Origin: Microcoleus sp. FACHB-DQ6
Lineage (GTDB): Bacteria; Cyanobacteriota; Cyanobacteriia; Cyanobacteriales; Microcoleaceae
DNA length: 32,379 nt
Reading direction: 5' to 3'
NCBI GenBank assembly: GCA_014695175.1
Contig: JACJNV010000107.1
Location: forward strand, 1 to 32,379
Shown here: positions 8,003 to 11,254 of the stretch, piece by piece
Numbering within the stretch: position 1 is the stretch's first letter
Layout: each line of letters starts with the position of its first letter
Notes under the pieces: generated by a model
Seen by the model: only the letters and a program-made list of their open reading frames with translations
Databases searched by the model: none
Told to the model about the DNA's origin: nothing
Position numbers and translations under genes: made by a program

Positions 8003-8142
8003 AATTATTACAACCTGACAATACTTACTAGATTACAATAAATCCTTTCCAGTTAAAAATTCTAGCAAAATGCGATTTTTGCCTGCGTCACTTTTCTAGT
8101 CAAATGACAGCAAATCTTGTATTCTGAAAAAAATAAGTTTAA

Positions 8143-8158
8143 CATGGTAACTAACATT
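8143..8158 (+). repeat. Left copy of 16-bp direct repeat flanking the tandem array
   Basis: CATGGTAACTAACATT occurs at 8143-8158 and again, identically, at 8662-8677, on either side of the four-unit array. It could be a duplicated target or a relic of the spacer sequence, since one internal spacer also contains ACTAACAT. Confidence 0.8.
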
Positions 8159-8160
8159 TT

Positions 8161-8660
8161 GCACCATTCTCAAGAACGGGCAAGATGCCCGTTCCACAAA
8201 AGATAAATTTTCTTGTGGAACAGGCATCTTGCCTGTTCCTAAAAGGTTAATTGAGAATGGTGCAAGATATAAGTTAAAAGTCACATCTTGCACCATTCTC
8301 AAGAACGGGCAAGATGCCCGTTCCACAAAAGATAAATTTTCTTGTGGAACAGGCATCTTGCCTGTTCCTAAAAGGTTAATTGAGAATGGTGCAAGATATA
8401 AGTTAAAAGTCACATCTTGCACCATTCTCAAGAACGGGCAAGATGCCCGTTCCACAAAAGATAAATTTTCTTGTGGAACAGGCATCTTGCCTGTTCCTAA
8501 AAGGCTAATTGAGAATGGTGCAACCTATGAGTTAAAACTAACATCTTGCACCATTCTCAAGAACGGGCAAGATGCCCGTTCCACAAAAGATAAATTTTCT
8601 TGTGGAACAGGCATCTTGCCTGTTCCTAAAAGGCTAATTGAGAATGGTGCAAGATATAAG
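8161..8660. repeat. Tandem array, four copies of a 129-bp nested-palindrome unit
   Basis: Units begin at 8161, 8290, 8419 and 8548 with an exact 129-bp period. Each starts GCACCATTCTCAA and ends with its reverse complement TTGAGAATGGTGC, so each unit is one long inverted repeat. Inside are two smaller palindromes, GAACGGGCAAGATGCCCGTTC and GGAACAGGCATCTTGCCTGTTCC, which are themselves near reverse complements of each other. A short spacer (for example AAGATATAAGTTAAAAGTC) separates units; the third spacer differs at several bases (AACCTATGAG, then TTAAAACTAA). The copies are nearly identical, indicating recent or homogenised duplication. Confidence 0.92.
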
Positions 8661-8661
8661 G

Positions 8662-8677
8662 CATGGTAACTAACATT
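8662..8677 (+). repeat. Right copy of 16-bp direct repeat flanking the tandem array
   Basis: Identical to 8143-8158 (CATGGTAACTAACATT). It lies directly after the last, partial spacer of the array. Confidence 0.8.
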
Positions 8678-10657: not shown

Positions 10658-10717
10658 AGATTGAATGGATAAGAGTAATTAAATTTCATAATTAAATTAT
10701 ATGAAAATTCAGTCAAA

Positions 10718-10751
10718 GCGGACGGTGGGACTCGAACCCACGAGGTTCAGC
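10718..10751 (-). repeat. Duplicated tRNA-Gly 3' end (candidate attachment site)
   Basis: Matches 11184-11217 at 33 of 34 bases, covering the acceptor 3' strand, the T-arm, variable loop and part of the anticodon stem. Beyond 10751 the match to the tRNA stops, so this is not a complete tRNA gene. It is best read as an att-type repeat. Confidence 0.8.
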
Positions 10752-10818
10752 GGAAGAGGTAAGCATCACTCATGGAACCCGATACTGGCAAAGGGTTACA
10801 TCCTCCGAGCTGATTTTT

Positions 10819-10852
10819 GTATCCAGTTTGGTCTCCAAATTGTCTCCAAAGT
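10819..10852 (+). repeat. Iteron cluster, left (GTCTCCAAATT type)
   Basis: Three tandem motifs: GTATCCAGTTTG (10819-10830), GTCTCCAAATT (10831-10841) and GTCTCCAAAGT (10842-10852). The spacing is 11-12 bp, about one helical turn, as expected for cooperative protein-binding sites. Confidence 0.75.
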
Positions 10853-10886
10853 GCTAACCTTGTCCTGTCGCTTTTGAAATTTTACC

Positions 10887-11006
10887 ATGAGCCATACGTC
10901 TAGTAGAGGTGCGGAATGTGGGTTAAAAGCACCACGCAAAAAGTCGAGGGCTGATTTGGGGGATATGGAAACTGTGCTGGACGTATTGGCAGAGCTAGGC
11001 GCTTAA
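10887..11006 (+). CDS. Short ORF inside the tRNA-Gly element (39 aa)
   Basis: ATG to TAA encodes 39 residues, starting MSHTSSRGAECGLKAPRKKS and ending DLGDMETVLDVLAELGA. No ribosome binding site is clear and I recognise no family. The C-terminal amphipathic helix and basic centre would suit either a small DNA-binding protein or the tail of a larger lost protein. It lies between the two iteron clusters, which is the only reason to take it seriously. Confidence 0.3.
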   Translation: MSHTSSRGAECGLKAPRKKSRADLGDMETVLDVLAELGA

Positions 11007-11025
11007 CCCAAGCCATATTTAGAGA

Positions 11026-11069
11026 CACTCCAAATACTCTCCACATTGTCTCCAAATTGTCTCCAAGTA
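11026..11069 (+). repeat. Iteron cluster, right (GTCTCCAAATT type)
   Basis: Four motifs in exact 11-bp steps: CACTCCAAATA, CTCTCCACATT, GTCTCCAAATT, GTCTCCAAGTA. A looser match (ATCTCCAAAAA) follows at 11091. They have the same orientation as the left cluster. Confidence 0.8.
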
Positions 11070-11182
11070 GCTATCCAAAACCCGATGTTTATCTCCAAAA
11101 ACATCCTGTGCAACCACAGAGACCAAGCCCTAGAAACGCCAAAACCCTTGATTTCTCAAGAGTTTTAAAGACTGTTCGCGCA

Positions 11183-11254
11183 AGCGGACGGTGGGACTCG
11201 AACCCACGACGTTCAGCATGGGAAGCTGACATTCTACCACTGAATTACGCCCGC
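11183..11254 (-). tRNA. tRNA-Gly (anticodon CCC)
   Basis: Read on the minus strand the sequence starts GCGGGCGTAATTCAGTGGTA and folds as a cloverleaf: acceptor stem GCGGGCG/CGTCCGC with one G-U pair, D-arm with AGTGGTAGA, anticodon stem TCAGC/GCTGA around the loop TTCCCAT (anticodon CCC), and T-arm GTGGGTTCGAGTCCCAC. CCA is not encoded. Its 3' end is repeated at 10718. Confidence 0.95.

Follow-up and report, generated by a model that had tools for sequence, protein, structure and literature searches.

A 431-bp insert beside the tRNA-Gly(CCC) gene of Microcoleus sp. FACHB-DQ6 is, at a probability that we put at about 90%, the remnant of a larger mobile element from which nearly all genes have been deleted. 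It lies in the window, the whole 32,379-nt stretch of DNA analyzed herein, on contig C10 of the draft genome of this strain (G000; 6.7 Mb, 402 contigs, 98%). Directly observed are empty sites in related genomes, sites occupied by larger elements, and both element ends in the window. Genomes, contigs, loci, and proteins are designated below by the letters G, C, L, and P, respectively.

Duplication of the tRNA-Gly(CCC) 3' end

As had been claimed in the initial annotation of this DNA, the 3' end of the tRNA-Gly(CCC) gene was found to be duplicated in direct orientation 466 bp away, with the second copy on the downstream side of the tRNA 3' end; positions 11182-11217 recur in the outer copy listed in Table 1, and the agreement is now counted at 35/36 bases. 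A chance origin of this repeat is ruled out by the next best 36-base match elsewhere in the window, which reached 23/36 on the plus strand and 21/36 on the minus strand. When compared without gaps with the 45-nt core of the relatives, the outer copy agreed at 37/45 positions, since three bases are absent close to its inner edge; this gap is common to both carriers of the insert (G000 and G020), and the bases are present in G015, G003, G026, and G001. The interval between the two copies (10752-11182) comprises the 431-bp insert, which contains no integrase gene except for its first codons, the gene being intact in relatives. The tRNA gene and its 3' fragment thus stand in the order and orientation expected of a tRNA-integrated tyrosine-integrase element. 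Elsewhere in the window, at 8096-8669, ORFs on both strands arise from a tandemly repeated peptide (MPVPQENLSFVERASCPFLRMVQDV...), and this segment appears to be repeat DNA rather than genes.

Occupancy of the site among relatives

The status of the site was assessed by searching for its tRNA side and outer flank in 29 genomes of the genus, including that of the strain itself. The site was empty in 13 of them (G004, G007, G009, G011, G012, G013, G016, G018, G019, G023, G024, G027, and G028), in which the flank is directly joined to the tRNA 3' end with a single core copy. The 431-bp insert was present in two (G000 and G020; 402/429 positions identical), and in another two (G015 and G003) the flank is followed by a 44-nt core copy and then by the interior of a larger element having the same left end. 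The flank was seen at tRNA-Gly(CCC) in none of the remaining 12 genomes: in G001, G002, and G026, pieces of elements lie at the core or tRNA; in G005, G010, G014, G017, G022, and G025, the tRNA has different flanks, with a single core copy per stretch examined; and a full-length match to tRNA-Gly(CCC) was not found in G006, G008, and G021. The empty G018 and the occupied G015 are identical across 60 bp outside the core. An assembly artefact was ruled out by the same insert in G020, which is a one-contig assembly.

The proposal of site-specific integration into the tRNA 3' end was strongly supported by the 13 empty genomes together with the relatives that share the same ends or repeats and encode a tyrosine integrase; the latter also supplied the larger, recombinase-bearing kin that had been envisaged. 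In the search for further copies of the interval, strains carrying an empty tRNA-Gly were found and additional sites were not: G000 has one copy, and the 58 relatives yielded one full-length match, at the same locus.

Anatomy of the insert

The ends of the insert were aligned with those of the larger elements in G002, G015, G003, and G001, and both the left and the right end were found to correspond to theirs. The bases up to approximately 10908 represent the left end, consisting of the core, the arm repeats, and the integrase gene start (Table 1), where the G002 integrase has MTDTSSRAKKGSVVVQ in place of MSHTSSR. The phased iterons and the small ORF noted in the initial annotation are both present, the former being most likely integrase arm sites and the latter a by-product of deletion: because an integrase start is joined to the tail of the gene at the opposite element boundary (hereafter the boundary gene), the 39-aa ORF was regarded as a fusion from an internal deletion. 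With 3 replacement versus 2 silent changes between G000 and G020, it was rejected as a real gene.

Table 1. Features of the insert and its target gene in the window
Feature	Position	Strand	Basis or remark
tRNA-Gly(CCC), intact, target gene	11183..11254	minus	ARAGORN; Rfam RF00005, 66.7 bits
Inner att core, 3' part of tRNA, 45 nt common with relatives	11183..11227	minus	45/45 versus relatives' core
Outer att copy, 35/36 to tRNA 3' end, three bases gone at inner edge	10716..10751	minus	
Left putative arm repeats, TTGTCTCCAAA type, 3/1/0 mismatches	10817..10850	plus	Same place in G002, G015, and G003
First codons (MSHTSSR) of deleted tyrosine integrase gene	10887..10908	plus	Left-end alignment with G002, G015, and G003
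Half palindromic repeat at putative deletion joint	10909..10928	plus	Whole palindrome at same boundary-gene point in L116 (G026)
Boundary-gene second-frame tail, last 27 codons and stop (LKAPRKKSRADL...)	10923..11006	plus	
39-aa ORF, probable fusion created by deletion	10887..11006	plus	
Right putative arm repeats (11035-11045, 11046-11056, 11057-11067, and 11089-11099)	11035..11099	plus	Same place in G001 and G002
Terminator-like hairpin, element right end	11141..11166		Read by eye, absent from repeat-finding output; similar sequence at relatives' element ends

These features are best explained by a history in which an integrative element, of 7-9 kb in its complete relatives and there equipped with a tyrosine integrase, a phage/plasmid-type primase-helicase, and a boundary gene, integrated at the tRNA-Gly(CCC) 3' end, leaving the tRNA intact and placing the second core copy on its far side. 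We infer the order of the subsequent deletion as follows: the boundary gene would have acquired a palindromic repeat in its 3' end, and an internal deletion would then have removed everything between this palindrome and about codon 7-8 of the integrase, resulting in 431 bp that retained both arms, with the 11-bp repeats as presumptive arm-type sites, and lost the recombinase. The remnant would now be passive, being inherited, swapped by homologous recombination, or lost via recombination between the two repeats, the last of which would recreate the empty site.

Full-size relatives

The complete relatives measure 7-9 kb and carry an integrase, a primase/helicase, and a boundary gene. The G021 element has a perfect 43-bp core repeat and spans 9,002 bp from the core to tRNA-Gly(TCC), and that of G011, likewise at tRNA-Gly(TCC), has a 43-bp core repeat and spans 9,063 bp. 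In G004 (L176, 2708-16931), two 7,112-bp copies with 47-bp cores and 4 differences between them are arranged in tandem at tRNA-Arg(TCT), and their near-identity suggests recent activity or duplication. All three genomes encode a tyrosine integrase of 411-412 aa near the outer core, reading inward. The primase/helicase contains DUF3987 in G021 and DUF5906 in G011 and G004, and for the G011 protein a match to the P4 primase family, under its cut-off, was obtained as well.

At tRNA-Gly(CCC), the G002 element has been reduced to the integrase and both arms, and its outer core is absent on its 3.4-kb contig. In G001, an end resembling the right end of the insert is followed by a core and then by the integrase of a second element, an arrangement that is a tandem accretion. 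The G026 element is split between two contigs. The elements of G015 and G003 either end abruptly or show decay, with broken integrases, and the tRNA side of G003 is unlike the right end of the insert; a complete element at tRNA-Gly(CCC) was for these reasons seen on no single contig, which is a counterpoint to our reading of the insert. The interior beside the outer core on contig C15 of G003 (L105, 1-12000) encodes, beside the broken integrase, many unnamed proteins, one of them with a weak tape-measure match.

As for the affiliation of the parent elements, a scan of the viral_contigs collection found no encoder of the parent integrase, and the integrase matches in phage and plasmid records (5 and 3 records, respectively) showed at most 31% identity. 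The G011 primase was nearest to those of cyanobacterial plasmids (37-44% identity for the ten listed of 48 records, with 1/48 in the 60-80% band), and phage and satellite primases matched as well. Relatives of the integrase with approximately 46-48% identity also occur in Nostocales (L180-L191 and L193), where at 7 of 13 loci the gene is situated between tRNA-Thr(GGT) and tRNA-Arg(TCT), and a convincing duplicate of a tRNA 3' end was not seen there; this integrase is perhaps fixed or domesticated.

The 11-bp repeats as candidate arm sites

The 11-bp repeats lie in one orientation close to both ends of the insert. Five plus-strand copies of TTGTCTCCAAA with at most two mismatches were counted in the 431 bp, whereas 500 dinucleotide shuffles of the interval gave 0.12 copies on average and never more than 2. 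When 243 genomes of the order were searched for the exact iteron pattern, the genome of the strain alone matched; the pattern was too strict, as the relatives carry repeat variants.

The left repeats and the protein sequences of seven integrases, a small sample of related proteins, were set against each other, and the repeat type was found to track residues 1-45 of the integrase. The TTGTCTCCAA repeats are paired with an N-terminal AKKGSVVVQTRSGRLRLQLPR in G002, G021, and one integrase of G026 (G026b), the TTGTATCCA or TTGTATTCA repeats with AKKGSVVVQTN.GRLRLQMPR in G006 and G011, and the TAGTCA-type repeats with KAS.GSVVV in G001 and the other integrase of G026 (G026a). In particular, the integrases of G021 and G011 are 96% identical past residue 78 and 71% identical over residues 1-45, and their repeats differ. 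The repeat type does not match the target tRNA, as it differs between G002 and G001, both at tRNA-Gly(CCC). As a counterpoint, the right end of the G011 element carries two kinds of repeat, TTGTATTCAA and TTGTCTCCAA. The Pfam domain Arm-DNA-bind_2 was recognized at the N-terminus of the G002 and G021 integrases above the cut-off, and in G004 slightly under it.

Judging from this co-variation and the Arm-DNA-bind_2 match, the iterons are most likely arm-type sites of the integrase. That they serve instead as replication iterons is less likely, given that they flank the integrase gene and vary with its N-terminus, although some other protein, for instance the boundary protein, may bind them.

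The boundary gene and its apparent -1 frameshift

The boundary gene of the parent elements consists of two overlapping frames. Their junction, GGGAAAATTGAGTGCCTGA with at most two mismatches, was found at 25 places (L194-L218) in 15 of the 29 genomes and nowhere in G000, and the reversed GGGAAAATTGAGTGCCTGA, searched as a control in the same 29 genomes, gave no match. At all 25 sites the heptamer GGGAAAA stands in the G_GGA_AAA phase, the heptamer itself being contained in the search pattern. The -1 frame is open for 93-150 codons at 22 sites and broken at three (L213, L215, and L218). A tRNA gene follows the second frame after 66-210 bp in 18 of these 22, and none was present within the stretch examined in the other four; the tRNAs are of nine kinds (Ser-CGA, Ser-TGA, Leu-TAG, Arg-CCG, Arg-TCT, Pro-CGG, Val-GAC, Gly-TCC, and Lys-CTT).

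At 20/25 sites, a hairpin with 10 or more of its 12 pairs formed starts five bases past the heptamer; it is absent in L196, L198, L211, L213, and L215, three of which retain an intact second frame. The pair count covered 21 rows out of 25 (all 20 that have a hairpin, plus L213), corresponding to 13 distinct rows, in which 91.7% of the hairpin cells were paired, a share raised by the choice of rows for hairpin presence, versus 86.2% in shuffles and at most 34.6% when the hairpin was slid. The covariation score was 0.184 versus 0.069 in shuffles, 0/500 of which reached it; two-sided changes were seen at 2/12 pairs, as equalled in 133/500 shuffles. In synonymous resampling, 19 of 22 sequences gave z values of -2.9 or lower, and the three that failed lack the hairpin. 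In 19/25, a GAGG or AGGA resembling a Shine-Dalgarno sequence is situated 11-12 bases upstream. A slippery heptamer in phase and a downstream structure, as expected of -1 frameshifting, are thus present, the former at all 25 sites and the latter at 20.

Changes in the second frame concentrate at third codon positions (4764, 3529, and 8664 pairwise differences at the first, second, and third positions of 22 sequences), and the excess is less clear in the first frame (6689, 5362, and 7855). The second frame has no ATG before codon 35, and sometimes none at all, but a TTG is found at codon 18 in 16/22, from which internal initiation may occur. Homologues fused in frame were also identified, namely P0001 (217 aa, 76% identity with the joined query across 96% of its length) and P0002 (EERLGKIEVLSDGG...). 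In another genus of the family (G258; L223, 1465-2069), GGGAAAG with a shorter hairpin occupies the same place, and G_GG.A_AA.G is among the most efficient frameshift motifs in Escherichia coli (PMC4066793). From these sequence features, the boundary gene appears to be decoded by -1 programmed frameshifting.

Searches with the boundary protein in Pfam, NCBIfam, and PDB returned coiled-coil-like matches alone, none of which reached a curated cut-off where one exists. The predicted structure of P0001 (mean pLDDT 63.7, pTM 0.23) contains a long helix at residues 75-173 with short helices on either side, and in this low-confidence model the frame junction would fall inside the long helix. By eye, the N-terminus appears ribbon-helix-helix-like. 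A second decayed piece of a boundary gene was observed in G000 near tRNA-Leu(TAA) (contig C132, 12045-12218; L225), and G018 has a boundary-gene match (L224) near the same tRNA-Leu(TAA).

Mobility of the insert and alternative readings

The initial annotation had further proposed a live non-autonomous element moved by an integrase elsewhere in the genome. Such a mini-element, composed of att sites and arms and excised or integrated by an integrase supplied in trans, would account for the retention of both arm sets and both core copies and for the patchy presence of the insert, and tandem accretion does occur at tRNA-Gly(CCC) in G001. The proposal is nevertheless left unsupported and we consider it improbable, as the insert is a single copy at the same locus in both carriers and its outer core lacks 3 bp. 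The parent integrase gave no match in the G000 assembly at 1e-10, and the PF00589 integrases found there are three fragments, none intact, although an unassembled integrase is possible in this draft of 402 contigs at 98%; G020 has one intact integrase of 460 aa, which is different from the parent integrase. In a flank tree of 16 rows, from which G024 was omitted for its short flank, G020 groups with the empty G018 at 100/100, apart from G000, as might be expected if the insert had arrived on its own. The genes near the site in G020 are indeed 94.7-98.0% like those of G018, but the 76 bp beside its core are 94.7% G000-like and 78.9% G018-like, which rules out a fresh insertion into the background of G020. 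Taken with the flank tree, these G000-like 76 bp amid G018-like genes indicate that insert and flank remained together or moved together; the distribution of the insert fits inheritance plus loss, or homologous exchange, and nothing in these data suggests present-day movement.

It is more improbable still that the remnant has been put to use, whether by giving tRNA-Gly(CCC) a new terminator or regulatory region or through the 39-aa ORF as a gene. The terminator-like hairpin after the tRNA and the ORF kept open in both carriers would agree with such a role, but the replacement and silent changes in the ORF noted above speak against it, and the interval differs at 27/429 positions, about like the intergenic flank (3/59). 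Hardly any weight can be given to the outer copy as a vestige of an ordinary tandem tRNA-Gly gene. That it matches just the 3' part of the tRNA gene would suit such a vestige, yet the interval aligns with the ends of integrase elements, and the idea is refuted by the 13/29 genomes in which a single copy joins flank and tRNA directly. A decayed integrase element is thus the reading that we retain.

Relation to known elements and implications

Element remnants beside tRNA genes are a familiar finding, one example being Sulfolobus, as far as the available text of that report goes (PMC3718332). Among the systems compared, CIMEs, as portrayed in the available portions of their descriptions (PMC5704250, PMC3146451), resemble the insert in being decayed elements between att copies whose integration genes were lost, and in the tandem accretion seen here in the relatives of the insert. 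Integration and transfer genes are likewise missing from the 431 bp, which hold one 39-aa ORF, and the arms and cores corresponding to attL and attR are present, the outer core minus 3 bp. Unlike CIMEs, the insert is only 431 bp long, cargo-free, and damaged at the outer core, with no sign of conjugative parents. Islander-type tRNA islands, according to the accessible text (PMC4383910), share with it an intact tRNA gene, a displaced 3' fragment lying downstream and oriented like the gene, and a core reaching the anticodon region; the insert differs in having no integrase and being below 2 kb, both of which the Islander filters reject. Tycheposons, compared by description from the accessible text (PMC10872708, PMC11389934), are likewise cyanobacterial and tRNA-bordered, with a tyrosine recombinase as in the parents, whose 7-9 kb fall within the tycheposon range of 4-200 kb; the insert itself has no recombinase or cargo and is not a tycheposon. 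To the extent that these sources describe their systems, the insert is a decayed tRNA-integrated element near the CIME idea, and its kind is already known.

As for the parents, a literature search that covered few subscription papers returned no description of the family or its frameshift and is hence weak evidence of novelty; the frameshift is not described in the available text of two papers on frameshifting (PMC3711429, PMC5009743). We lean toward the view that they constitute an undescribed family of plasmid-like elements that occupies many tRNA genes in Microcoleus-type cyanobacteria, has a gene with -1 frameshifting at its tRNA-side border, and employs arm-swapping integrases. If this is true, the border gene would yield two products, one short and one long, the latter ending in a coiled-coil tail, and the integrases would trade their N-terminal domains and the arm repeats that match them as a unit. 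The long form may control excision, by analogy with FseA of ICEMlSymR7A in Mesorhizobium, which does so and in which two frames are fused by a programmed frameshift as appears to occur in the boundary gene (PMC5882170, available text).

The insert itself represents ordinary decay, but the decay is unusually clear, with an empty site, a larger element, an integrase-only derivative, and a 431-bp scar all found in one genus. Such scars are possibly under-counted, because the published Islander filters, as given in the accessible text, reject integrase-less cases and those below 2 kb (PMC4383910). The relatives, in turn, make two ideas testable, namely that arm sites are read by an exchangeable N-terminus of the integrase and that frameshifting serves as a control of the boundary gene.
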